Source: Methylovirgula sp. (GTDB lineage Bacteria; Pseudomonadota; Alphaproteobacteria; Rhizobiales; Beijerinckiaceae). Taken from it: a stretch of DNA of 12,217 bases. The stretch spans positions 1-12,217 of the forward strand of contig JASHSW010000078.1 of NCBI GenBank assembly GCA_030038595.1, given 5' to 3'. The notes below the pieces were generated by a model. It had not been told where the DNA came from. It did not search any database and saw nothing but the letters and a program-made list of their open reading frames with translations. The position numbers and the translations under genes were made by a program. Below are positions 833-12,217 of the stretch, in pieces. Each line of letters starts with the position of its first letter. Position 1 is the stretch's first letter.

Positions 833-1837
833 TCACCGTCCCTTGCAAATCGGCGTTGGGCGTTGCGGGGGTGCGGGATGATCCTTCTTGTATTGGACGA
901 GGATCGGATTGAGGGTTTCCTTTGGCCAAAATTTCGGTGAGCGGATTTCTTTCAGACAGGAAGCGTTCCAATATAATTGCGCGCGCGACAGCGACCGTCC
1001 GGCCGCCACCGCTCGCGCGACGGCGTTGACGTCGGCCGCGTCAGGATAGATGTACAGCGTCGTCGGATCGTCCCTCACCATCGCGATGATTTGCCGGACG
1101 TCCGACGGCGACCAACTGGTACAACCGTCGCTGCGGCCACCCGAGTAATCCACCAGCTTTCCGAACGGAACGTAACCGTCTTGGTTTGCGTGCGGGCTGG
1201 CCGGATCTTTCAGAAGACATACCCCCCTCAACAAGACGGCCGCATGTCCGCCGATCTTGCGCTGTCTGGCGTTTGCGGTCTCGCCTTCGCCGTAAAACTG
1301 AATGAACGAGCGTATCAAAACCGCGTCTTGTTTCACCGACACGCGGTAATAGCCTTTGAATGACGTTTTCATCTCGCCTGTCACATAGGCCCCGCCGGCC
1401 GTCAGGTCCGAATCCATCGCATTGCTGAAGTTTTTCGCGCACCGTCTCCCGTTTGCGAAATCCGCGACGCCTTGCAAATCGCGACCGCCGCCGTGCCCCG
1501 CCCAAATCGCACGAAACGACCGGTCGGATTCGCAGATAACGTAGAACCGGTGCCCCAATTTTCCGTCGCTTAGGACGCTGGGACGCGTAGCGTCCATGGC
1601 GAAGTAGCAAAGATTTTTAACCGCGCCTTCGCGCAGTTTTCGCAGGTAGAGCGCGCGGGCCCTTTGCAAGACCGGTTGCGCGATTTGACCTTCGCCTTCG
1701 CCGACATGGGCCCTCAGCCAGGCCGGAATGTCCGATGGCTGTTCGGCGGCCAAAGATCGCGGCTGCGCCGACAAGGCGATCACGACGAAGAGGCTGAAGA
1801 TATCGGCGATTTTCAGAAGGAAGGATCTTGACCGCAC
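833..1837 (-). CDS. Exported L,D-transpeptidase-like (YkuD_2-type) protein
   Basis: The 334-residue product probably acts on peptidoglycan in the periplasm. Residues 1-31 look like a signal peptide ending at SLAA. The middle has FSNAMDSDLTAGGAYVTGE (about 137-155), His198 in GGHAAVLLRG, and GRSDGC with Cys239. These match the order of conserved blocks in the murein L,D-transpeptidase catalytic family (YkuD_2), where His and Cys are the catalytic pair. Similarity outside these blocks is low, so the substrate is uncertain. The start is GTG at 1837, preceded by AGGAGA at 1852-1847 on the minus strand. The C-terminus is proline- and lysine-rich. It appears to be a single-gene unit, convergent with the small secreted gene. 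Confidence 0.72.
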   Translation of the reverse strand: MRSRSFLLKIADIFSLFVVIALSAQPRSLAAEQPSDIPAWLRAHVGEGEGQIAQPVLQRARALYLRKLREGAVKNLCYFAMDATRPSVLSDGKLGHRFYVICESDRSFRAIWAGHGGGRDLQGVADFANGRRCAKNFSNAMDSDLTAGGAYVTGEMKTSFKGYYRVSVKQDAVLIRSFIQFYGEGETANARQRKIGGHAAVLLRGVCLLKDPASPHANQDGYVPFGKLVDYSGGRSDGCTSWSPSDVRQIIAMVRDDPTTLYIYPDAADVNAVARAVAAGRSLSRAQLYWNASCLKEIRSPKFWPKETLNPILVQYKKDHPAPPQRPTPICKGR

Positions 1838-2286
1838 CGGACCAATTCTCCTGCCGAAGCCTGTGGCAACTCTGGTAGCGGTCGCCCGTCGGATTGCTGC
1901 GGCGAGGCCGCGAGTGGCGGCAGTGATCGTACCTCGATCTCGGCTTTTGAGGGATCAAAAGAATGCTCCGATTGGCGCCCTGTAGAGCCGCCGGTGGGAA
2001 GCCCGGTCTAGAATTCTTACGGTGCAGCGCGGAGGGCTGGCGGTGTGGCAATTGGCGACTGATTTTCTCTTCAAGAACAATGTCCCGGGCCCGCTCCTCT
2101 TGGTGCCGCCCGCTGCCAGAATCTACATTCGATAGCCTCCCGATTTTTTAGGTCGCGGAGACCGGCGGAAGCTGAGCCGGCGAGGTCTCGATGGCCCGCC
2201 TGACGACGCCGGTCTCGAGCGAGCGCTCCGCACAATGAATTTTCTTCTGGCAGGAAGATTTGCCGGATAATCGGGCCTTGCACCGA
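1838..2286. other. Long intergenic region between LDT-like gene and usp-mla operon
   Basis: No gene is supported here. The open frames crossing it are antisense extensions of neighbouring genes or lack a start, a ribosome-binding site and known motifs. One plus-strand frame ending at the stop near 2133 reads like ordinary protein (about 45 codons after a stop at 1983-1985) but has no start signal; it could be a remnant or chance. The region should hold the promoter of the minus-strand transpeptidase-like gene, and it contains a perfect inverted repeat at 1945-1960. Confidence 0.5.
1945..1960. repeat. Perfect inverted repeat TTTTGA-N4-TCAAAA
   Basis: TTTTGA and TCAAAA flank the four-base spacer GGGA. 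The site lies 108 bp upstream of the GTG of the transpeptidase-like gene. It resembles an FNR-family palindrome, but the TTG-to-CAA spacing is six rather than the canonical eight, so I do not call it an FNR/FixK site. It could be an operator for another dimeric regulator, or chance. Confidence 0.4.
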
Positions 2287-2300
2287 TTGCGCAGGATCAA
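2287..2300 (+). promoter_or_regulatory. FixK/FNR-like box upstream of usp-mla operon
   Basis: TTGCG-CAGG-ATCAA matches the FNR/FixK consensus TTGAT-N4-ATCAA at eight of ten positions and keeps the TTG-N8-CAA core. Its centre is 74.5 bp before the GTG start of the stress-protein gene. TTCTAT at 2323-2328 fits a weak -10 element. A transcript start near 2335 would put the box at about -41.5, the usual class II activator position, and leave a leader that still holds the Shine-Dalgarno at 2355-2362. A FixK-like regulator is encoded in the same window. Confidence 0.6.
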
Positions 2301-2354
2301 TGTCGGCAAGCGTCAGCTTCCCTTCTATGGGGGCGGTGACGGATCGCCTTTGCC

Positions 2355-2362
2355 AAGGGGGA
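2355..2362 (+). promoter_or_regulatory. Shine-Dalgarno that sets the usp start at GTG 2368
   Basis: AAGGGGGA ends five bases before the GTG at 2368. This decides against the longer in-frame start at 2260, whose 36 extra residues look unlike the family and would run through the FixK-like box. Confidence 0.75.
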
Positions 2363-2367
2363 CGGAC

Positions 2368-3210
2368 GTGTTCAAGGATCTGATCGTGCATCTGGATGGA
2401 ACGGAAGAGGACCATATCCGGCTTACCCAGGCCGAAGCGATCGCCGGCCGATTCGAAGCGCACCTGACGGGCCTCTATACCAATCCATTGCCGGAATACG
2501 CATATGTTCTGGCGATTCAATCCACGCTTGCGCCAATGGGTCCGGTGCTCGCATTCGAGCGGCAGATCCGCGAGGAAGGCGATGTCGCGGTCGCGCGCCT
2601 GAAAGAACGCTTCAAGAAGATCGCCGTCGAGAACGAAATTCGCCGCATCGATGCGGGCGCGAGTCTTTTGCCAAGGCTCTGCGCCTCGGCGGCTCGGTGG
2701 TCGGATCTTTTTATCGCGACCACGCCCTATCGCGGCGAAGCTTCGCTTGGTTGTGACGCTTTGGTCGAAGCCGTGCTTTTTGGTTCCGGACAACCCATTT
2801 ATCTCATCCCCGAGCAATTCAAGGGAAGCGGCGCGGTGCGCAACGTCCTCGTCGCCTGGTGCGACACGCGCGAATCGGCGCGCGCACTTGCCGAAGCCAT
2901 GCCGTTTTTGCGCGTTGCCACCAATGTCCGTCTCGTCACGGTCGAGACCGCCGGGCTGACGGACGAGCACGAGGACCCGATCAACATCACGGCCCATCTT
3001 CGTCGGCATGGCGCCAAAGCCGAAGTGCGCAGGATCGAGGCGGGCCGCCGTTCGACTTCGGAAGCGCTGTTGCAGGAAGCAAGCAAAATGGCCGCCGACC
3101 TCATCGTGATGGGGGCCTATGGACACTCGCGGTTTCGCGAATGGACAATCGGCGGCACGACGCGCGAAATGATCGCCCGCGCCGGCATCCCGATCCTCGT
3201 TGCGCATTGA
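2368..3210 (+). CDS. Tandem universal stress protein (UspA family)
   Basis: The 280-residue cytoplasmic protein has the size of a double Usp. It opens with MFKDLIVHLDG, the usual first strand of a Usp domain. The second domain starts near RNVLVAWCDTRESARAL and ends with MGAYGHSR, GGTTREM and GIPILVAH, the conserved ATP-binding loop and last strand of ATP-binding Usp proteins. The first domain lacks a clear G-x2-G-x9-G loop, so probably only the second binds nucleotide. The GTG start is set by a strong Shine-Dalgarno. It is the first gene of an apparent operon with the lipid transporter: its stop is only 7 bp before the mlaE ATG. A FixK/FNR-like box lies upstream, consistent with induction of Usp genes at low oxygen. 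Confidence 0.9.
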   Translation: MFKDLIVHLDGTEEDHIRLTQAEAIAGRFEAHLTGLYTNPLPEYAYVLAIQSTLAPMGPVLAFERQIREEGDVAVARLKERFKKIAVENEIRRIDAGASLLPRLCASAARWSDLFIATTPYRGEASLGCDALVEAVLFGSGQPIYLIPEQFKGSGAVRNVLVAWCDTRESARALAEAMPFLRVATNVRLVTVETAGLTDEHEDPINITAHLRRHGAKAEVRRIEAGRRSTSEALLQEASKMAADLIVMGAYGHSRFREWTIGGTTREMIARAGIPILVAH

Positions 3211-3217
3211 GAGAAAG

Positions 3218-4339
3218 ATGCAGCCGTTGGAGAGCGCGGTAAGCGGTCGAGATCTGGACATTACTCTGTCGGGATCGTGGACGGCCGCGCATACGCGCGT
3301 GCTCGAGCCGCTGGTCGAAGCTGCAGTTCGGGAGGCACGCGACCGGCACCTCCGCCTCGATATGCACGCCGTAACCGAGATCGATACGTTTGGCGCCTGC
3401 CTGGTGGAAAGGCTCGCTTGCAGCAATTCGACCGGCATCGAAGCAGAGCCTGTCGGAATTCCGGAGCGGATGCGCGGCCTTTTGGCGGAAGTCGGCCGCG
3501 TCAGCCGCGCGGCGCAGCCGCTGCCACCCAAAAAGAAGGCAAGCTTCGCGGGAATTGAATCGATCGGCCGAGCCACGATCAACGCCGGCCGGGATCTGGT
3601 CGTATTCATCGAGATGCTCGGCGAGCTGGGCGATGCGCTGCTGCGCGTCCTGCGCGACCCACGCCGGCTGCGGCCGATTTCCCTGATCTATCAGCTCGAC
3701 CGCGTCGGCCTGCAAGCCATTCCGATCATCTTTCTCATCACCTTCCTCATCGGAGGGATCATTTCCCAGCAAGGCATTTTTCATTTCCGCAGATTCGGCG
3801 CCGGCGATTATGCCGTCGATTTGGTCGGCATCCTCGTGCTGCGCGAAATCGGCGTGCTGATCGTCGCGATCATGGTAGCGGGCCGTTCGGGAAGTTCTTA
3901 CACCGCGGAACTCGGCTCGATGAAGATGCGCGAGGAAATTGACGCGCTCTATACGATGGGACTCGATCCTGTCGAGGTTCTTCTTTTGCCGCGCGTCGTC
4001 GCGCTCATTTGCGCGCTGCCGGCGCTGACGTTCTTCGGCTCGATCTCGGCGCTTTTCGGAGGCGGTCTAGTCGAGTGGTTTTACGGCGGCATGAGTCCGG
4101 CGATTTACATCGAGCGCCTGAAGGATGCGGTTTCCATCACGCATTTCGAGGTTGGGATCGTCAAGGCGCCGTTCATGGCCCTGGTGATCGGCATTGTCGC
4201 GTGTTCGGAAGGCTTGCGCGTCAAGGGCAGCGCCGAATCCTTGGGCCTTCAAACGACGACGTCCGTGGTCAAGTCGATCTTTCTCGTGGTGGTGCTCGAC
4301 GGGCTGTTCGCGATGTTCTTCGCCGGAATTGGGATGTAA
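3218..4339 (+). CDS. mlaE: MlaE-type lipid ABC transporter permease with N-terminal STAS domain
   Basis: This is the inner-membrane permease of an Mla-type phospholipid transporter, which exchanges lipids between the inner membrane and a periplasmic MCE protein. Residues 1-100 are a STAS-like domain (LTLSGSW-like and EIDTFGACLVERL segments). Residues 115-373 are the MlaE domain with several membrane segments (for example 165-183, 203-221, 257-280, 316-330, 352-372) and the family block GRSGSSYTAELGSMKMREE at 222-240, continuing to TMG at 248. A 373-residue STAS-fused form is common in alphaproteobacteria. I chose ATG 3218, preceded by GAGAAAG, over an upstream TTG at 3200 that overlaps the usp gene. 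It sits between usp and mlaF, 2 bp from the latter, which implies coupled translation. Confidence 0.93.
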   Translation: MQPLESAVSGRDLDITLSGSWTAAHTRVLEPLVEAAVREARDRHLRLDMHAVTEIDTFGACLVERLACSNSTGIEAEPVGIPERMRGLLAEVGRVSRAAQPLPPKKKASFAGIESIGRATINAGRDLVVFIEMLGELGDALLRVLRDPRRLRPISLIYQLDRVGLQAIPIIFLITFLIGGIISQQGIFHFRRFGAGDYAVDLVGILVLREIGVLIVAIMVAGRSGSSYTAELGSMKMREEIDALYTMGLDPVEVLLLPRVVALICALPALTFFGSISALFGGGLVEWFYGGMSPAIYIERLKDAVSITHFEVGIVKAPFMALVIGIVACSEGLRVKGSAESLGLQTTTSVVKSIFLVVVLDGLFAMFFAGIGM

Positions 4340-4341
4340 CG

Positions 4342-5124
4342 ATGGACAGCGAAGCGATCATCAGTGTGCGCGATCTTGTGGTCGGCTTTTCGGACCAGAT
4401 TGTACTCGACCACTTGTCACTCGACGTGCGGCGCGGCGAAATTCTCGGCCTTGTCGGCGCCTCGGGCGGCGGCAAGTCCGTGCTGCTGCGCGCGATCATC
4501 GGACTGCTTGCGAAACGAGACGGGAGAATTAGCCTTTTCGGCACGGATCGCGATATTGCCGCGCCGGAGACAATGCAAGCGATCGAACGGCGTTGCGGCG
4601 TGCTGTTTCAGCAAGGCGCTTTGTTTTCTTCGCTGAATACGCGCCAAAATGTCGAATTTCCGATGCGCGAATATCTACACCTGTCGGAGAGACTGCGCGG
4701 GGAGGTGGCGCTCACCAAGCTCGGAATGGTCGGCATCAGCACCGAGGACGCGGAAAAATTTCCGGCGGAACTTTCCGGCGGCATGACTAAACGCGCCGCA
4801 CTGGCGCGGGCGCTCGCGCTCGATCCGGAACTCGTCTTTCTCGACGAACCGACCTCTGGGCTTGACCCGATAGCAGCCGGCGATTTCGACACGCTGATCG
4901 AGACACTGCAGCGGACGCTGGGGCTCACGGTCTTCATGGTCACCCATGATCTCGACAGCCTCTATGCCATTTGTAATCGCATCGCCGTGCTTATCGACGG
5001 CAAGATCATCGTACAGGGCCCGATCGACATGATTCTCGCCTGCGAGCATCCGTGGGTGAAGGCATATTTCCGCGGCAAGCGTACGCGCGAGAAGGCGCCC
5101 GTGCTCGGCCAGCCAGCACATTGA
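4342..5124 (+). CDS. mlaF: MlaF-type ABC transporter ATP-binding subunit
   Basis: The 260-residue cytoplasmic ATPase powers the Mla-type lipid transporter. All key motifs are present: Walker A GASGGGKS (39-46), Q-loop FQQGALFSSL (Gln90), signature LSGGM (144-148), Walker B LVFLDE (164-169), and the H-loop His202 in MVTHD. LSGGMTKRAALARALALDP is typical of MlaF rather than of other ABC ATPases. The C-terminal extension, up to KAYFRGKR and beyond, also fits MlaF. The ATG at 4342 follows the mlaE stop by 2 bp, and the stop precedes the mlaD ATG by 9 bp, so the three subunits are surely co-transcribed. Confidence 0.95.
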   Translation: MDSEAIISVRDLVVGFSDQIVLDHLSLDVRRGEILGLVGASGGGKSVLLRAIIGLLAKRDGRISLFGTDRDIAAPETMQAIERRCGVLFQQGALFSSLNTRQNVEFPMREYLHLSERLRGEVALTKLGMVGISTEDAEKFPAELSGGMTKRAALARALALDPELVFLDEPTSGLDPIAAGDFDTLIETLQRTLGLTVFMVTHDLDSLYAICNRIAVLIDGKIIVQGPIDMILACEHPWVKAYFRGKRTREKAPVLGQPAH

Positions 5125-5133
5125 GGGAAAGCA

Positions 5134-6264
5134 ATGGAAACGCGGGCACGCTACATATCCGTCGGGCTCTTCGTGCTGGCAATCATTGTTTCCGGATTCG
5201 GCTTCGTCTATTGGCTGGACAACAACGGTGGCCTCGGCGAGCGCACCATCTATCGAATCCGGTTCGAGGAGTCGGTCGCGGGCTTACAGGTCGGGGCGTC
5301 CGTCCAGTTCAACGGCATACGCGTCGGAGAAGTCACCGGCCTGCAACTCGACAAAGACGATCCGCGGCGGGTTACCGCCACCATCGCCGTGGATCAGAAT
5401 ACGCCGCTCAGGGCCGACACCAGGGTCGGTGTCACCTCGCAAGGACTGATGGGAACGCCGGCAGTCTCGCTCAACGGCGGCACCTTGCGTTCACCGCTTC
5501 TTTCCGCCGCGCACGGAGAACCTCCCGTCCTCACGGCAAATCGGGGTGCCACGCAAGATCTCATGCAGTCCGCGCACCAGACTCTTCAACACGTTGATCA
5601 GATTTTAAGCGACAATTCGGAATCGATTAAGAGCACGATCGACAATCTCAAGACGTTCTCCGGGGCGCTGGCGCGCAATTCCAACCGCGTCGATGCAATC
5701 ATGGCAGGGCTTGAGCACCTTGCCGGAGGCGGTCCCACCGAAAAGCCCAAGCCGATCTATGATCTTACTGTGCCGAGCACATTTCCCATTTCGTCCGTTG
5801 CTCCGAAGATGCAGCTTTCCATCGCCACGCCCACGGCCATCGTAGCGCTGCAGACACAGCGGATGCTTGCCCGTTCGTCGGACGGACAGATCTCACCGTT
5901 GGGCGATGCGCAATGGAGCGACGCGCTGCCGAATTTAATTCAGGAAAAGGTGCTCCAAGGCTTCGAGAACGCGGGTATCACGGCCACCGCGGCTTCGGCA
6001 CTTGGCGAGCAACCAGTGGCATCCAATGATCAGCTTCTGATCGATCTTCGCAACTTCGCGATCGTGACGAATCCTACCCCGGTCGCGGATATCGCATTCT
6101 CCGTCAAGATCGTGGGGCAGAACGGCCGAGTCGTCGCCACCAAACTCATCCGTGCGACCGCGCCGGCAGCCGGCACGGATACGCCGCAGATCGTGGCGGC
6201 GTTCAATACGGCCTTCGGCGAAGCCCTTACCGATCTCATGGCATGGACGGCGAGGTCGATCTGA
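5134..6264 (+). CDS. mlaD: MlaD (MCE) protein fused to a PqiC-type auxiliary domain
   Basis: The 376-residue periplasmic, membrane-anchored protein should bind lipid for the MlaEF transporter. Residues 8-28 form one membrane helix. Residues 38-115 are an MCE domain (GLQVGASVQFNGIRVGEV, then SQGLMGTPAVSLNGG). Residues 136-195 look helical. Residues 206-374 resemble the ABC-type transport auxiliary lipoprotein family (PqiC/DUF330): PIYDLTVP at the start, then MLARSSDGQISPLGDAQWSD and ALPNLIQEKVLQGFENAG. In most species that domain is a separate lipoprotein gene next to mlaD. Here the frame is continuous and the protein contains no cysteine, so the second domain cannot be lipidated on its own. 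AGGGAAAG precedes the ATG. No mlaC or separate pqiC gene follows in the window. Confidence 0.85.
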   Translation: METRARYISVGLFVLAIIVSGFGFVYWLDNNGGLGERTIYRIRFEESVAGLQVGASVQFNGIRVGEVTGLQLDKDDPRRVTATIAVDQNTPLRADTRVGVTSQGLMGTPAVSLNGGTLRSPLLSAAHGEPPVLTANRGATQDLMQSAHQTLQHVDQILSDNSESIKSTIDNLKTFSGALARNSNRVDAIMAGLEHLAGGGPTEKPKPIYDLTVPSTFPISSVAPKMQLSIATPTAIVALQTQRMLARSSDGQISPLGDAQWSDALPNLIQEKVLQGFENAGITATAASALGEQPVASNDQLLIDLRNFAIVTNPTPVADIAFSVKIVGQNGRVVATKLIRATAPAAGTDTPQIVAAFNTAFGEALTDLMAWTARSI

Positions 6265-6331: not shown

Positions 6332-6389
6332 AACAGCCTCTTTGGAAATCGAACAAATAATCAAGCGTAGCCAAAGGAACATTTGCGCC

Positions 6390-6866
6390 ATGAGCGCCTA
6401 TCGAATTGACCGGTTGGACGTTGAACGGATCGACCAAGCCTATCCGTTCGTAACTCTGCTCGCGCCGACGCTCGGGCTTGATTCCTGGCGGACGCTATGC
6501 GAGACCGTCATGAACCGCGAGCGGGTCGGCGAAGTTATCGCCGCAACCAATCCTCTTGGTTACATCCAGGGGATCTGCGTGGCCGCATTGCGAAACGACC
6601 CTGCCGTCGGCAGCTTTCTCGACGTGCCATTCATCGTTATCGCCAGCACAGCGGACGAGGCGGGCGTAATCACCGATATGCTCGCCTATCTTAAGACGCT
6701 CGGGCGGGCGGAAGGCTGCGACAACTTGCGGATATGGACTACGGAGGAGGACAGTTGGAGACGCTGTTTACACGAACACGAGCTTCGACCGTGGGATCAT
6801 GGTGTTCTCCTGCCGCTTTCGCCGACGATCGCGAGCGACGAGCGGTTTGTCAGGTCTTGCCGGTAA
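6390..6866 (+). CDS. Small GNAT-like protein of unknown substrate
   Basis: The 158-residue cytoplasmic protein has a strand-helix pattern suggestive of a GNAT acyltransferase fold: GYIQGICVAAL, then FLDVPFIVIAST followed by a long helix (TDMLAYLKTLGRAEGCDNL) and LRIWT. The usual acetyl-CoA loop (R/Q-x2-G-x-G/A) is not evident, so it may be a degenerate or divergent member and no substrate can be given. I chose ATG 6390, preceded by AAAGGA, over a TTG at 6342 that falls in the likely promoter. A FixK/FNR-like box upstream suggests low-oxygen control. Its last 17 bp overlap the end of the convergent response-regulator gene. Confidence 0.62.
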   Translation: MSAYRIDRLDVERIDQAYPFVTLLAPTLGLDSWRTLCETVMNRERVGEVIAATNPLGYIQGICVAALRNDPAVGSFLDVPFIVIASTADEAGVITDMLAYLKTLGRAEGCDNLRIWTTEEDSWRRCLHEHELRPWDHGVLLPLSPTIASDERFVRSCR

Positions 6867-7563
6867 ATACATAGCCGACACCGCGGACGGACTTGATCAA
6901 GGCGGGCCGTTTGGGATCGCGTTCGATCTTCTTGCGAAGCCGGGCGATCTGCGCGTCAATCGTCCTATCGAAGGCCTCGAGATTGCGACTGCGCGTCAAG
7001 TCCATCAATATTTCGCGCGCAAAGACACGTCCCGGCTGTTTGGCGAGGAGCGCCAACATGTCGAATTCGCCAGTCGTCAGGACGACCTCCGTGCCGTCCG
7101 CCGCCAACAATTGGCGGCGGGCGATGTCGAGCTGCCAACCCCCGAAACGCAAAATCGTCTTGCTTTCTCCGGTCGGAGACGCCGTGGGCTGGCGGCGGCG
7201 TAGAACGGTTCGTACCCTTGCCAGCACTTCGCGAAGATGAAACGGTTTCGGGACGTAATCGTCAGCACCCACTTCGAGTCCGACGACCCGATCCACGACG
7301 TCATCGCGCCCCGTCAGCATGATGATCGGCACATCCGACTGCGCGCGAATCTCGCGGGCCAGCGCCAAACCGTCCTCGCCTCCGGCCAGCCCGAGGTCGA
7401 GTAAGATAATGTCAACCGAGGATTTGTCCAAGCAATCCCGCAGGCCTGCGCCGTTGGCGACAGTGGTGACGCGATATCCTTCGTCCTCGAAATAGCGAAG
7501 CAGCATCTGCCGAATGCGCGCATCGTCATCGACGACGAGGATGTGTTCACTGCGTTTGGCCAT
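6850..7563 (-). CDS. OmpR/PhoB-family response regulator, FxkR-like by context
   Basis: The 237-residue transcription factor has a complete receiver domain: Asp12/Asp13 acidic pair, Asp56 phosphoacceptor (in IILLDL), Thr84 (IIMLTGR) and Lys106 (VPKPF). A winged-helix DNA-binding domain follows (about 130-235), ending RTIDAQIARLRKKIE and RGVGYVFTG, the OmpR/PhoB signature. It has no partner kinase of its own; instead it is divergent from fixK and the hybrid FixL-like kinase. That matches FxkR of Rhizobium etli, an OmpR-type regulator that replaces FixJ in activating fixK. The family is certain; the FxkR role is inferred from context. I chose ATG 7563 (MAKRSEHILVVDD), since a start at 7599 would run into the putative operator at 7595-7610. 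The Shine-Dalgarno is weak. Confidence 0.88.
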   Translation of the reverse strand: MAKRSEHILVVDDDARIRQMLLRYFEDEGYRVTTVANGAGLRDCLDKSSVDIILLDLGLAGGEDGLALAREIRAQSDVPIIMLTGRDDVVDRVVGLEVGADDYVPKPFHLREVLARVRTVLRRRQPTASPTGESKTILRFGGWQLDIARRQLLAADGTEVVLTTGEFDMLALLAKQPGRVFAREILMDLTRSRNLEAFDRTIDAQIARLRKKIERDPKRPALIKSVRGVGYVFTGKT

Positions 7564-7594
7564 GATTCGAGCTTCGAGACACGGTCCGAAGGCT

Positions 7595-7610
7595 GTCACA
7601 AACCGTTACA
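7595..7610 (+). promoter_or_regulatory. Direct repeat GTCACA-N4-GTTACA, putative OmpR-type operator of fixK
   Basis: Two near-identical hexamers are spaced with a 10-bp period, the geometry bound by tandem OmpR/PhoB-family regulators. The repeat lies in the 139-bp gap between the divergent response regulator and fixK, 92 bp before the fixK ATG. From memory it agrees with the GTTACA-type K-box proposed for FxkR. The extended context CTGTCACA-AACC-GTTACAATTTT also resembles a Pho box, so PhoB is an alternative binder. Confidence 0.6.
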
Positions 7611-7701
7611 ATTTTGCACGAACAGTCATGCAGCTACCGCTTCGACATCACAAACGCCCGCTTTACTGCAGCCATCGAAAACGCAGGGAAGGGACTTAAT
7701 C

Positions 7702-8451
7702 ATGTTCTCCGAAAGCGCGCAAACAGCGATCGCCGGACACGCAAGTGGGGGGTTTGTCCCGCCGACAGCGCCCACTTTGCGGTCTCTTTTCGGCCGCCAG
7801 CCGATCGAAAAGTTCGAAGCCGGAACAGCCATTCTATGGGAAGGCGATGATGCCTCGCATATTTTTGAGGTTACCGAAGGCGTGCTTCGTGTCTTTCGCA
7901 TCCTGGGCGACGGCCGGCGCGTCATCACCGGGTTCCTCTATCCCGGCGACATTCTCGGCGTCTCGCTCAAGGACCGCTATCTTTATAGCGTGGAAGCGGT
8001 AACCCACGCGCAGGTGCGGCGTTTCGGCCGCAATCGTTTCCAAGAGGAGATCAGCCGTTCGCCCGAACTGCGTCCGCAGCTCTTCTCGCGGCTCTGCGAT
8101 GAAATGGCCGCGGCGCAGGACCAGATGGTTCTTCTTGCCCGCAAAAATGCCGAGGAACGGGTGTGCAGCTTTCTCCTTTTGATGGCGCGCCGTGTGAAGG
8201 CCGATCAACAGACCACACCCGTCATCGAAATTGCCATGACGCGTCTCGATATGGCGGATTATCTCGGCCTGACCATCGAGACGGTATCGCGCACCATGAC
8301 CAAGCTTGCGAGCCGCGGCGTGATCGCGCCCAGCGGCCGGCATGGCCTCAAGATTCTCAAGTTTGCGAAGCTTGTGGCGCTTGCGGGCGACGGCGATGAG
8401 GAGGATAAAACGGATTCTAATTACGCCCGACGGGCGGTCTGGCCCAACTGA
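7702..8451 (+). CDS. fixK: FixK-like Crp/Fnr-family transcription regulator
   Basis: The 249-residue regulator has a cyclic-nucleotide-binding-like domain (about 28-140), a dimerisation helix (AAAQDQMVLLARKNAEERV) and a helix-turn-helix (about 178-208). Glu193, Ser196 and Arg197 in TIETVSR match the FNR/FixK residues that read TTGAT-N4-ATCAA. It lacks the N-terminal cysteine cluster of FNR; the only cysteines are 132 and 155. It should therefore not sense oxygen through an iron-sulfur cluster, which marks it as FixK rather than FNR/FnrN. By alignment from memory, Thr180 sits where Bradyrhizobium FixK2 has its redox-active Cys183. ATG 7702 follows GGGAAGGGA. The kinase gene begins 20 bp after its stop, implying one operon. 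The charged tail after about residue 229 looks poorly folded. Confidence 0.9.
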   Translation: MFSESAQTAIAGHASGGFVPPTAPTLRSLFGRQPIEKFEAGTAILWEGDDASHIFEVTEGVLRVFRILGDGRRVITGFLYPGDILGVSLKDRYLYSVEAVTHAQVRRFGRNRFQEEISRSPELRPQLFSRLCDEMAAAQDQMVLLARKNAEERVCSFLLLMARRVKADQQTTPVIEIAMTRLDMADYLGLTIETVSRTMTKLASRGVIAPSGRHGLKILKFAKLVALAGDGDEEDKTDSNYARRAVWPN

Positions 8452-8471
8452 AATTCCCAGTCTGCGGAAGT

Positions 8472-10385
8472 ATGGAAACGATCAAGCCGCAAGTTATCGG
8501 GGAGAAAGGCCTCGACGAGATTGCCCGCGTCTTGGATGGCGCCAACGTCATCGTCCATGGCCTCGACGGCGTCATCTCGCGTTGGACGACCGGCTGCGAG
8601 CAACTTTATGGTTGGACTCGGCAAGAGGCCGTCGGTCGGGTCGTGCACAACATGCTCGCGACCGTTTTTCCGGAGCCGCTCGACGACATACGGGCACGTG
8701 TCGCAAATGTTGGCGCATGGTGGGGCGAGCTGGCCCACCAGCATAGAGACGGGCATACTGTGTCGGTCGCCAGCCGCTGGGTGGCGTTGCTGCCGGAAGG
8801 CCGTCCGGGGCTCGTTATTTTGCAGACGAACAGCGATATCAGCGATCTGAAGGAAACGCAGGCGGGCCTCGCCGCGCGCGAGGCGCATTTGCGCTCGATT
8901 CTCGACACCGTCCCGGAGGCCATGGTGGTGATCGACGAAACCGGTACCGTGAGCTCGTTCAGCGCCGCGGCGGAAAAGCTGTTCGGCTATCCCGCCAACG
9001 AGGTTTGCGGCCGCAACGTGAAGATGCTCATGCCCTCGCCGGATCGCGAGGCGCACGACGGCTATATTTCGCGCTATCTCACGACCGGCGAGCGGCGCAT
9101 CATCGGTTACGGACGCATCGTAACGGGGCTGCGCAAGGACGGAACGACCTTTCCGATGGAGCTCGCGATCGGCGAAGCGCTCGCCAACGGCAAACGCATT
9201 TTCACGGGGTTTATCCGCGATCTGACGAGCCGCCACAGGATGGAAGACGAGTTGCGCCAGGCGCAGAAGATGGAGGCCGTCGGCCAGCTAACCGGCGGCA
9301 TCGCCCATGACTTCAATAATTTGCTGACCGTGATCTCCGGCAATCTCGAAATGATCGAGAACCGAATCGACGATGACAAGCTGCGCGAGCTGTTGCGCGA
9401 GGCGCAGAATGCCACGACGGATGGCGCGAAATTGACGGAGCAGCTTCTGGCCTTCGGACGGCGCCAGCCGCTCAATCCGAAACTCACCGACGTCGGCAAG
9501 CTTATCGCCGACTTCTCGGATCTGCTGCGTCGAACGCTCGGCGAGACGATCGAGCTTCGTACCGTCGTGAAGGGCGCCTCGAATCAGGCGCTGGTCGATG
9601 CATCCCAGTTGCAGAACGTTCTGCTCAATCTGGCGCTCAATGCGCGCGATGCCATGCCGCGCGGCGGCAGTTTGACCGTCGAGATTTCTCCGGCCAAACT
9701 CGATCTCGATTACGTGCAGATGTATCCGGAGCTGCGTACCGGCGACTACGTGCTTGTCTCGGTCACCGATAGCGGGATCGGCATGTCGGCCGAGGTGAAG
9801 GCGCGCGCTTTCGAACCCTTCTTCACCACCAAAGGACCTGGTTCCGGAACCGGCCTCGGACTCAGCATGGTATATGGATTCGTCAAACAGTCCGGCGGCC
9901 ACATCCAGCTTTACAGCGAACCGGGCCAAGGGACGAGCGTGCGGTTCTTTTTGCCCGCCGTTCATGGCGATCGGATCGGTGGCAAAATCGCTAAGCCTGC
10001 CGCGGGCGACGAGATTCTCCGCGGCCACGAAGCCATCCTCGTCGTGGAAGACGATCCGCGCGTGCGTCGGGTCGCCGTGAGTCGTCTCAAGGATGCCGGT
10101 TATCAGGTGGTCGAAGCCGAGACCGCCGCGCAAGCCCTCATTCTGCTTGCCGAGCACCCGGATATCGCGCTGTTGTTTACCGACATCGCAATGCCGGGTG
10201 GTATGACCGGGGATGAACTGGCGCGGGAGGTCCGCGCCATGCGGCCGGACATCAAGATCCTGTTTACCTCCGGCTATGCCGAACCGCGCATTGCAGGACG
10301 CGAGTTGGCGCGGGCAAGGAGCTGGCTCAAAAAGCCCTATACCGCAATGGAACTGGCGGCCCGCCTGAGAGAGCTGCTCGACTAA
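8472..10385 (+). CDS. Hybrid FixL-like oxygen-sensing histidine kinase with C-terminal receiver
   Basis: The 637-residue protein has no membrane segment, so it is a soluble kinase. Domains in order: PAS (about 15-125), FixL-type heme PAS (about 135-252), dimerisation/H-box with His279 in GGIAHDFNN, ATPase domain (about 370-495; N-box, DSGIGMS, GTGLGLS), and a receiver (522-637) with Asp527/528, Asp571 and Lys621. The heme PAS matches Bradyrhizobium FixL closely. His195 in HDGYISRY equals the heme ligand His200, and Arg201, Ile210, Arg215, Leu231 and Ile233 equal Arg206, Ile215, Arg220, Leu236 and Ile238. Tyr213 replaces Ile218. The architecture fits the hybrid FixL (hFixL) class, which works without FixJ. 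The spacing from GGAAG to ATG is only one base, so it may be translated by coupling to fixK, whose stop is 20 bp upstream. Confidence 0.9.
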   Translation: METIKPQVIGEKGLDEIARVLDGANVIVHGLDGVISRWTTGCEQLYGWTRQEAVGRVVHNMLATVFPEPLDDIRARVANVGAWWGELAHQHRDGHTVSVASRWVALLPEGRPGLVILQTNSDISDLKETQAGLAAREAHLRSILDTVPEAMVVIDETGTVSSFSAAAEKLFGYPANEVCGRNVKMLMPSPDREAHDGYISRYLTTGERRIIGYGRIVTGLRKDGTTFPMELAIGEALANGKRIFTGFIRDLTSRHRMEDELRQAQKMEAVGQLTGGIAHDFNNLLTVISGNLEMIENRIDDDKLRELLREAQNATTDGAKLTEQLLAFGRRQPLNPKLTDVGKLIADFSDLLRRTLGETIELRTVVKGASNQALVDASQLQNVLLNLALNARDAMPRGGSLTVEISPAKLDLDYVQMYPELRTGDYVLVSVTDSGIGMSAEVKARAFEPFFTTKGPGSGTGLGLSMVYGFVKQSGGHIQLYSEPGQGTSVRFFLPAVHGDRIGGKIAKPAAGDEILRGHEAILVVEDDPRVRRVAVSRLKDAGYQVVEAETAAQALILLAEHPDIALLFTDIAMPGGMTGDELAREVRAMRPDIKILFTSGYAEPRIAGRELARARSWLKKPYTAMELAARLRELLD

Positions 10386-10613: not shown

Positions 10614-11651
10614 TTAGGCGGCGATGATAACCTTCAGCGCATGCGTATCGGCGGCGTGGCTGAACGTCTCATAGGCATCGAGGATGTGATCGAGGGTGAA
10701 GCGATGCGTGATCAGCCGGGTAGGATCGATCTTCTTCGCTTCCACGGTCTTCAGGAGCATTGGCGTCGAAACCGTATCGACGAGGCGCGTCGTGATCTCG
10801 ATATTTTGCGACCATAACCACTCCAAGTGCAGGTCGACCTTTTTGCCGTGCACACCAATGTTGGCGATGACGCCGCCCGGCGCGACAATGTCTTCACAGA
10901 GCTGGAAAGTCGCCGGTATGCCGACCGCCTCGATGGCGGTATCGACGCCGCGGCCGCTGGTCAGCGCCTTTACCGCTTCGGCCGCCCCGCCGTTGCCGCT
11001 GTTGATCGTGTGCGTGGCGCCCAACTGACGGGCCAATCCCAGGCGATTGTCGTCGAGATCGATCATGACGATCTGCGCGGGAGAATAGAACAGCGCGGTT
11101 AGCAGCGCCGCGAGGCCAATTGGGCCGGACCCGACAATCGCTACAGTTGACCCGGGCGCCACTTTGCCGTTGAGCACGCCGCATTCGAAACCGGTCGGCA
11201 GAATGTCGCTGAGCATGACAAGTGCCTCTTCGTCGGCTCCTTCGGGAATATGATAGAGGCTTGTGTCGGCATGCGGCGTGCGCACATATTCGGCCTGCGT
11301 TCCGTCGATCTCATTGCCGAGAATCCAACCGCCGGTCGTGCAATGCGAATACATGCCACGCCGGCAATATTCGCAGATTCCGCAGGCCGAGATGCATGAG
11401 ATGAGCACCTTGTCGCCGGGCCGGAACGACGTTACGCCGGGTCCGATCGAATCGATCACGCCGACACCCTCATGGCCGAGAATCCGCCCCGGCTTGCAGG
11501 TCGAAACGTCGCCCTTCAGAATGTGAAGGTCGGTACCGCAAATCGTGGTTTTCACCATCTTCACGATCGCGTCGCCGGGATCCTTGATCTTTGGCTTGGG
11601 GCGCTCTTCGAGGGCTTTGGAACCGGGGCCACGATAGACGAGGGCTTTCAT
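10614..11651 (-). CDS. Zinc-dependent alcohol dehydrogenase (medium-chain family)
   Basis: The 345-residue cytoplasmic enzyme should interconvert an alcohol and an aldehyde or ketone with NAD(H). The catalytic zinc ligands are Cys38 (TICGTD), His60 and Glu61 (GHEG), with Asp149 in the fourth position. The structural zinc site is complete: Cys90, 93, 96 and 104. The Rossmann loop GSGPIG is at 174-179, and Asp198 at the end of the second strand favours NAD over NADP. The exact substrate cannot be told. The ATG at 11651 has GGAG about eight bases upstream. It is downstream of the PHB-type reductase and a 95-residue gene on the same strand, with a FixK/FNR-like box 83 bp before the start. That supports a role in disposing of reductant at low oxygen. 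Confidence 0.93.
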   Translation of the reverse strand: MKALVYRGPGSKALEERPKPKIKDPGDAIVKMVKTTICGTDLHILKGDVSTCKPGRILGHEGVGVIDSIGPGVTSFRPGDKVLISCISACGICEYCRRGMYSHCTTGGWILGNEIDGTQAEYVRTPHADTSLYHIPEGADEEALVMLSDILPTGFECGVLNGKVAPGSTVAIVGSGPIGLAALLTALFYSPAQIVMIDLDDNRLGLARQLGATHTINSGNGGAAEAVKALTSGRGVDTAIEAVGIPATFQLCEDIVAPGGVIANIGVHGKKVDLHLEWLWSQNIEITTRLVDTVSTPMLLKTVEAKKIDPTRLITHRFTLDHILDAYETFSHAADTHALKVIIAA

Positions 11652-11727: not shown

Positions 11728-11741
11728 TTGATATGGATCAG
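11728..11741 (-). promoter_or_regulatory. FixK/FNR-like box upstream of alcohol dehydrogenase
   Basis: On the plus strand the site reads TTGAT-ATGG-ATCAG, nine of ten to TTGAT-N4-ATCAA, the best match in the window. Its centre is about 83 bp before the dehydrogenase ATG. It overlaps the stop codon of the 95-residue gene upstream. I see no good -10 element at the expected place (about 11700-11705), which lowers confidence that it is a promoter site. Confidence 0.5.
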
Positions 11742-12025
11742 GCCGTCCGGCGCTCGCCTGATTTGGTCGCATCCTGGAACGTCGTCTGCTCGTGCAGGCG
11801 GAGAAGTTCGCAGATCGTTCCGGTGATTTTCCTGTCCGTTGCCGCCGAAAGGTGTTGCTGGCCGGAGACATCGGCATAGAGCGCATGCAGCTCGGCAGCC
11901 AGCTCTCGAAGCCGATCGACTTGTGACTCGGGCACGCGGAGCGCCGCGCTGTAGGAAGCTCCTCGCCATTTTCTCAGAGCGTTGATACGCTTTAGACCGA
12001 TGCTGACTGGGTCCTTGTCCATCAT
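11738..12025 (-). CDS. Conserved-looking small helical protein, function unknown
   Basis: This 95-residue protein (94 if the second ATG, at 12022, is used) has no signal peptide or membrane segment and belongs to no family I recognise. It looks mostly helical: a basic start (GLKRINALRKWRG), a heptad-like stretch (VDRLRELAAELHALYADV) and a second helix (DRKITGTICELLRLHEQT). GGGAAG lies 3 bases before the first ATG and 6 before the second, so the second start is equally likely. It lies 52 bp after the acetoacetyl-CoA reductase stop and 86 bp before the dehydrogenase start, all on one strand, so it may share their transcript. A small partner or regulatory protein is possible, but that is a guess. 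Confidence 0.65.
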   Translation of the reverse strand: MMDKDPVSIGLKRINALRKWRGASYSAALRVPESQVDRLRELAAELHALYADVSGQQHLSAATDRKITGTICELLRLHEQTTFQDATKSGERRTA

Positions 12026-12077: not shown

Positions 12078-12217
12078 CTACGCCATGTATTTTCCGCCGT
12101 TGATCGACAAAGTCGCGCCGGTGATGAAGCCCGAGTCGTCGTCCACCAGGAATAAAATGCCGCGGGCGATTTCTTCCGGTTTGGCAAGCCGGCCGATGGG
12201 TACGCCGGCCACGATGT
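12078..12217 (-). CDS. phbB: Acetoacetyl-CoA reductase (PhaB/PhbB-like), C-terminal part only
   Basis: Only the last 45 codons are in the window; the gene continues past the right edge. The reading frame ends in TAG at 12080-12078. The visible residues include PIGRLAKPEEIARG, then a segment GFITGATLSINGGKYMA at the very end. This is the classic C-terminus of short-chain dehydrogenases of the 3-ketoacyl reductase/PhaB type, and the NGGKYMA ending favours acetoacetyl-CoA reductase (NADPH-dependent, polyhydroxybutyrate synthesis) over FabG. The catalytic Ser-Tyr-Lys and cofactor loop lie outside, so the exact member is not proven. Confidence 0.8.
   Translation of the reverse strand, partial: IVAGVPIGRLAKPEEIARGILFLVDDDSGFITGATLSINGGKYMA

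Follow-up and report, generated by a model that had tools for sequence, protein, structure and literature searches.

A predicted hFixL-FxkR-FixK low-oxygen switch in Methylovirgula and its possible link to polyhydroxybutyrate and acetate metabolism

We analyzed a 12,217-nucleotide stretch of DNA from Methylovirgula sp. (the window), which is the entire contig G000:C239 of a 1.85-Mb draft genome (G000; 253 contigs, 81.8% complete) that was probably metagenome-assembled, and which carries three genes of a putative oxygen-sensing pathway. The gene fxkR (6850-7563, minus strand) encodes a 237-amino-acid OmpR-type response regulator with the Pfam domains Response_reg and Trans_reg_C, and is divergent from fixK (7702-8451, plus strand), which encodes a 249-amino-acid activator of the CRP/FNR family (Pfam cNMP_binding and HTH_Crp_2). 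A gap of 20 bp separates fixK from hfixL (8472-10385, plus strand), the gene for a putatively soluble hybrid kinase of 637 amino acids with Pfam PAS, HisKA, HATPase_c and Response_reg domains. We chose the ATG at 7563 as the start of fxkR over a listed GTG start further upstream at 7599, and the ATG at 7702 as the start of fixK, for which the listed 302-amino-acid frame begins earlier. Within the 138-nt gap between the divergent genes, at 7595-7610 on the plus strand, lies a K-box, GTCACA-AACC-GTTACA, which is the predicted operator of FxkR. FixJ belongs to the NarL-type family, and no FixJ was found in the window. Open frames and Pfam matches therefore confirm the three families, the coordinates and the 20-bp spacing given in the original prediction, as well as its claim that the response regulator is OmpR-type with no FixJ nearby.

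The kinase hFixL is built from a first PAS domain, a second, heme-type PAS domain (heme His195), HisKA (His279), a HATPase domain and a receiver (Asp571). The second PAS domain matched the solved FixL heme domains 1d06 (6e-46) and 1dp6 (9e-45), which we take to be those of S. meliloti and B. japonicum FixL, respectively. The heme-pocket residues His195 (proximal), Ile210, Ile211 and Arg215 (distal) are all present, presumably in the roles they have in B. japonicum FixL, and the heme His, the Ile-Ile pair and the Arg are conserved across the hFixL rows, with L155 alone having Val for the first Ile. By hydropathy, hFixL looks soluble, like the hFixL of Rhizobium etli, to which it is 63-64% identical: its mean over 19 residues never rises above 1.6, whereas 39 stretches of that length do so in the S. 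meliloti FixL frame. In the kinase tree, four FixJ-linked FixL rows, three of them from the window's genus, lay across one branch with a support of 100, and the window kinase fell together with R. etli hFixL within a 27-row group (Shimodaira-Hasegawa-like approximate likelihood-ratio test, SH-aLRT, 90). Both this and the regulator tree are quick trees with SH-aLRT support only, in which many inner branches are weak. An approximately unbiased (AU) test rejected an exclusive clade made up of the window, its two mates from the genus and three rows of the Rhizobium type (p 2e-47); other hFixL rows intervene, so this result has no bearing on the hFixL grouping. Since the larger hybrid group also includes CckA-like rows, hFixL seems to combine a kinase half of that lineage with the heme PAS domain of FixL. 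Hydropathy, the receiver domain and the FixL-type heme PAS thus bear out the prediction of a soluble hybrid FixL-like kinase. Nor does this kinase group with the FixJ-linked FixL proteins, the outcome that had been named as refuting, and FixJ was not detected in the 81.8%-complete genome at E<=1e-20. Separately, a set of distant hybrid kinases (43-50%; L051-L055, L059, L065 and L109-L111), with record labels that include Bradyrhizobium, Elioraea, Cellvibrionales and Rhodospirillales, keeps the FixL heme-pocket residues (L054 has Val for the first Ile), and at L059, L110 and L111 an OmpR-type regulator 48-54% identical to FxkR adjoins the kinase.

FxkR has the phospho-acceptor Asp56, together with Thr84 and Lys106, and is 66% identical to the FxkR of R. 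etli plasmid p42f. The regulator tree placed it in a 28-row clade with this protein and with R. leguminosarum pRL9 FxkR (SH-aLRT 98), separate from the closest paralogue (43-47% identity), which is carried by all 11 genomes of the genus; the window genome's own paralogue was entered twice in this tree. A grouping with another paralogue, which had also been put forward as a possible refutation, was therefore not found, and among NCBIfam models PhoB matched FxkR less well than OmpR did. FixK is 52% identical to R. etli FixKf and has FixK2 (4i2o; 1.2e-28) as its best solved relative. It lacks the N-terminal cysteines of the FNR/FnrN kind, its only cysteines being at positions 132 and 155.

The K-box differs by one mismatch from GTTACA-N4-GTTACA, starts 107 nt upstream of the fixK ATG and ends 31 nt before the fxkR ATG. 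We examined its position in a set of 39 loci, each with a kinase scoring 560 bits or more, comprising the window, 30 of 80 loci (among the matches listed), two reference plasmids and six further genome stretches. These loci hold 39 fixK genes above 160 bits (L045 has none and L132 has two), and a K-box lies 94-113 nt upstream of the ATG in 38 of the 39 (17 exact, 16 with one mismatch and five with two). A script assigned the start codons, and the set contains related loci, such as L136 and L137 from the window's genus, so that it does not amount to 39 independent cases. The exception is L141, whose FixK is 44% identical and does not adjoin the other genes. When the 260 nt in question were shuffled letter by letter, an equally good match arose in 0-6 of 200 shuffles each. 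K-box-like sites with at most one mismatch are not enriched genome-wide, because two were seen in the 1.85-Mb draft and 3.2 are expected from base composition; the number expected in a given 138-nt gap is about 1.5e-4. The evidence for the K-box is thus its position and the conservation of that position, not its genome-wide number, and on this basis the candidate operator that had been proposed is borne out. Within the genus, three of 11 genomes (G000, G001 and G009, which are 82, 84 and 73% complete) have FxkR, hFixL and a close FixK (at least 80%), and these three also have a K-box upstream of fixK.

The lone further K-box-like site in each of these three genomes, before an enoyl-CoA hydratase gene (G000:C4:3656-3671, G001:C43:2333-2348 and G009:C150:1296-1311), was considered as a second FxkR target and rejected, because near-copies precede the same gene in five of the eight FxkR-less genus genomes (G003, G004, G005, G007 and G010). 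The site is a palindrome, GTTAC-N6-GTAAC, and precedes this gene in eight of the 11 genomes of the genus, whether or not they carry FxkR; another regulator therefore probably uses it.

The trees and the K-box supported the proposal that the pathway is that of R. etli. On R. etli CFN42 p42f, as in the window, fixK and hfixL are adjacent and the K-box is at the same distance from fixK. However, fxkR lies about 19 kb from fixKf-hfixL on p42f, whereas it is divergent from fixK in the window, and the p42f genes have the cbb3 oxidase genes ccoO and ccoP nearby, whereas the window genes have genes for polyhydroxybutyrate (PHB) and acetate metabolism. In R. leguminosarum 3841, available excerpts of PMC7888657 describe fxkR9-fixK9b as a divergent pair sharing one K-box, as in the window; they also describe a chromosomal fxkRc-fixKc-hfixLc cluster that brings together the same three genes but, unlike the window, has no K-box. 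The FixL-FixJ-FixK system of S. meliloti pSymA has a heme PAS domain and an output regulator of the same kind as the window, but its FixL is membrane-bound, lacks a receiver and has a kinase part that stands apart in the tree, whereas the window kinase is predicted to be a soluble hybrid.

Candidate FixK targets lie beyond hfixL. A gene for a Zn-dependent alcohol dehydrogenase (ADH, assigned by Pfam; 10614-11651, minus strand) is a candidate, as it has upstream a FixK-box-like sequence, TTGATATGGATCAG (11728-11741, no strand), with one mismatch relative to TTGAT-N4-ATCAA. This site overlaps the end of a 95-amino-acid frame (11738-12025, minus strand), so that coding may account for part of its conservation; the corresponding position in G001 reads TTGATGTGGATCAG. 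In G001, ADH shares a contig with the triad and lies about 5 kb away from hfixL; in G009, the two genes are neighbors. The window breaks off within phaB (12081-12215, minus strand), the gene for acetoacetyl-CoA reductase, of which only the end is included. The window end shares 392 bp (98.2%) with contig C242 of this genome, on which phaB is intact beside a phaC divergon, in the order phaB, a small frame, two exact FixK boxes (5677 and 5721), phaC, pta-maoC, ackA and fabI, with the boxes 62-119 nt upstream of the likely phaC start. These names were given by Pfam and NCBIfam (fabI by Pfam family alone), and PhaC scored above the Pfam cut-off for PhaC_N and below the NCBIfam cut-off for class I synthase. 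A 128-amino-acid frame before phaB appears phasin-like but matched no family, and we left it unnamed. In G001, a single contig runs from the triad past ABC-transporter genes and the dehydrogenase gene to phaB and phaC, with two boxes ahead of phaC, one of them exact and the other near. Paired FixK boxes precede phaC in all three triad genomes and are both exact at one phaC copy each, in G001 on C161 and in G009 on C23, where about 0.4 exact boxes per genome are expected. Boxes with at most one mismatch numbered 55, 52 and 37 in G000, G001 and G009, compared with 13-16 expected from base composition. In G001, contigs C161 and C164 each carry a near-identical version of the phaC region, FixK boxes included, which reflects either a duplication or mixed strains.

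As judged from its genes, residues and operator, the locus is a genuine hFixL-FxkR-FixK set, and we hold with high confidence, which attaches to the switch alone, that it is a low-oxygen switch. The gene families, the heme-pocket and catalytic residues, the K-box, the FixK boxes and the clade memberships were observed directly; from these we infer heme occupancy, phosphotransfer to FxkR, the direction of regulation and the targets. hFixL would bind O2 at the heme in its second PAS domain (His195), and a drop in O2 would free the heme, upon which hFixL would autophosphorylate and the phosphate would reach FxkR. Phosphorylated FxkR would then bind the K-box at 7595-7610 and turn on fixK-hfixL; because hfixL lies 20 bp past fixK, activation of fixK would also raise hFixL, giving positive feedback. 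The same K-box lies near the fxkR start and would probably damp fxkR, and the hFixL receiver may tune or store phosphate. In R. leguminosarum, where this pathway was tested, the signal at 1% oxygen passes from hFixL via FxkR to fixK. There the K-box lies at -62 relative to the fixK transcription start, and the one shared by fxkR9 and fixK9b is considered to serve both activation of fixK and repression of fxkR (PMC7888657, in excerpt); the geometry in the window is similar. FixK, without FNR-type cysteines, would bind TTGAT-N4-ATCAA boxes, and its clearest target in the genus would be the neighboring divergon, with phaB and ADH on one side and phaC, pta-maoC, ackA and fabI on the other. At low O2, electrons would thereby pass into PHB and ATP would be gained via acetate. 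We somewhat favor this PHB/acetate divergon as the output of the switch. A FixK-PHB link has precedent, because FixK2 is reported to control a phaC paralogue in Bradyrhizobium diazoefficiens (PMC10888616, in excerpt). The output of the locus is probably new, and suggests that the switch serves carbon storage and acetate metabolism.

The divergent layout of fxkR, fixK and hfixL was found by script in 21 of the 39 loci, a biased rate since these were chosen by likeness to the window, and in 22 with L049, whose open frame is too long for the rule. It is the commonest layout among the hFixL loci examined, and records with it include Bosea, Kaistia, Ensifer, Sinorhizobium, Rhizobium, Microvirga and Acidisoma. 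Other arrangements occur: hfixL converges on fxkR in L140, and in L141 fxkR is divergent from hfixL, with fixK about 1.3 kb beyond hfixL. Excerpts of a 2016 comparative study report the hFixL-FxkR system in three of its genomes and place its origin in an ancestor of Rhizobiaceae (PMC4999443). The Bosea, Kaistia and Microvirga records and the window's genus extend hFixL-FxkR-FixK more widely than Rhizobiaceae. Thus, a switch known from root-nodule bacteria is now placed in a relative further removed from them and, on the present data, outside Rhizobiaceae; it is new in place but not in kind. Among the literature matches listed for Bosea, Beijerinckiaceae, Microvirga and Kaistia, with subscription papers outside the scope, the term hFixL was not used. 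Across the family, 50 of 397 genomes, belonging to 11 of 43 genera, gave a kinase match at E<=1e-130, a threshold that admits two weak matches and the long open frames of genus g56. The hFixL-like frames of that genus span 677-1069 amino acids.

FixJ was found in four other genomes of the genus (G004, G006, G007 and G010; 47-58% identity to the S. meliloti query), with the G004 protein above the NCBIfam FixJ cut-off, and weakly in G003 (35%). Three genus genomes thus have hFixL, four others have a good FixJ match (E<=1e-50) and none has both, a pattern that is not significant (p = 0.21). As a general rule, strict alternation of hFixL and FixJ was rejected, as many family genomes have both. We compared 48 of the 50 hFixL-positive family genomes (G029 and G238, with weak hFixL, were excluded beforehand) with 22 hFixL-negative ones, a non-random set of 70, and FixJ matched in 21 of 48 and six of 22, respectively, at E<=1e-50, and in 29 of 48 and eight of 22 at E<=1e-40. 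G004 has FixL and FixJ followed by a receiver, FixK, an exact box TTGATATTTATCAA, phaC, pta, ackA and fabI, in this order; in G007 the order is FixJ, FixK, the box TTGATATTTATCAA and phaC, on a contig that starts inside fixJ and leaves FixL out of view. The genus could therefore be one in which sensor cassettes were swapped around a fixed output, the PHB/acetate divergon being flanked by FixJ-FixK or by FxkR-FixK-hFixL with no cbb3 link, an idea we put forward tentatively. If true, two different two-component routes would converge on one DNA box and one metabolism. The genus offers a natural setting to compare two oxygen sensors on one kind of target operon. A swap in place as a rule was rejected, because the phaC operon stands beside FixJ-FixK in only two of the four FixJ genomes, G004 and G007; it is not within the 19.5 kb examined in G006, and the contig ends first in G010. 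The comparison of phaC surroundings covered the three triad genomes and the four FixJ genomes.

Several observations weigh against the switch and its proposed output. Curated models do not settle the names of the three proteins: apart from a general PAS-box domain model, every NCBIfam model scored below its cut-off for FxkR, FixK and hFixL. OmpR was the best match for FxkR, with PhoB weaker; FnrL (149.6 bits) outscored FixK (143.9 bits) for FixK; hFixL reached 283 bits for FixL (cut-off 850) and 346 bits for CckA (cut-off 1000); and no hFixL or FxkR model was among the NCBIfam matches listed. No sigma-70-type promoter was found in the fxkR-fixK gap. Many of the one-mismatch FixK sites must be chance, and the reversed pattern, which occurs two, four and one times in G000, G001 and G009, is too lenient a control. 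Neither FixJ (S. meliloti query) nor ccoN of the cbb3 oxidase was detected in these three drafts, which are 73-84% complete, so gaps are possible. Finally, hFixL does not generally stand in for FixJ, given the 21 of 48 hFixL-positive family genomes with a good FixJ match.

Three other explanations were considered. One is that the regulator is an OmpR-family protein of a general kind whose own partner is encoded elsewhere, the kinase acting through an unseen FixJ or through its own receiver and a phosphotransfer protein. As a hybrid, the kinase could indeed pass phosphate to its own receiver first, and the regulator query had 21 matches in the genome, kinase receivers included. However, the FxkR clade placement, the shared K-box, the co-occurrence in the same three of 11 genomes and the lack of a detected FixJ make this explanation very improbable. 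Another is that the set is a true hFixL-FxkR-FixK switch with a classical main output, the cbb3 oxidase and possibly nitrogen fixation, and that the incomplete drafts happen to lack these genes. This could draw on hfixL being near cbb3 oxidase genes on R. etli p42f and R. leguminosarum pRL9, and on the incompleteness of the three drafts. Yet the search for this output, made with ccoN, detected the gene in no hFixL genome, and of the 11 genus genomes only G006 had a match above the family cut-off; chance loss of ccoN from all three drafts comes to about 0.8%, assuming independent gaps. Neither sensor seems tied to the cbb3 oxidase in this genus, and we regard a classical output as improbable.

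The third explanation, that the locus is a recently acquired mobile cassette, relates to its earlier description as a portable, complete switch. Its distribution is patchy, in three of 11 genus and 50 of 397 family genomes, and the Acidisoma-labelled set L025 falls with Bosea on weak branches (83 and 85). On the other hand, G+C content (GC) and that of third codon positions (GC3) of fxkR, fixK and hfixL are close to those of neighboring genes, so that base composition gives no sign of recent import at the locus. G001 and G009 also share the flanking Mla genes and ADH, and the locus is hence not recent within the three genomes. No mobile-element family matched among the ten window frames scanned. 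A recently acquired mobile cassette is accordingly unlikely. Of the earlier description, the hFixL-FxkR-FixK core stood, and "portable, complete switch" gained no support, given a common layout, a similar published cluster in R. leguminosarum 3841, an even composition and no mobile-element family. Patchiness fits transfer or loss equally well. Pairwise distances of FxkR, FixK and hFixL correlate (r 0.60-0.76 over 25 loci), as expected if the three proteins travel or descend together, which fits transfer and loss alike. L025 (Acidisoma sp. L85), whose FxkR and hFixL are the ones that fall with Bosea, represents either a transfer between orders or a wrong label.

The remainder of the window, to the left of fxkR, has an L,D-transpeptidase-like gene (833-1837, minus strand; below the Pfam cut-off), a universal stress protein gene (2260-3210, plus strand), MlaE/MlaF/MlaD-type genes (3200-6264, plus strand) and a 174-amino-acid frame with no family name (6342-6866, plus strand). 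Further exact FixK boxes are found on G000 contigs C3 and C102 and on G009 contig C246, and in G009 an exact FixK box also precedes an Hsp20 gene.

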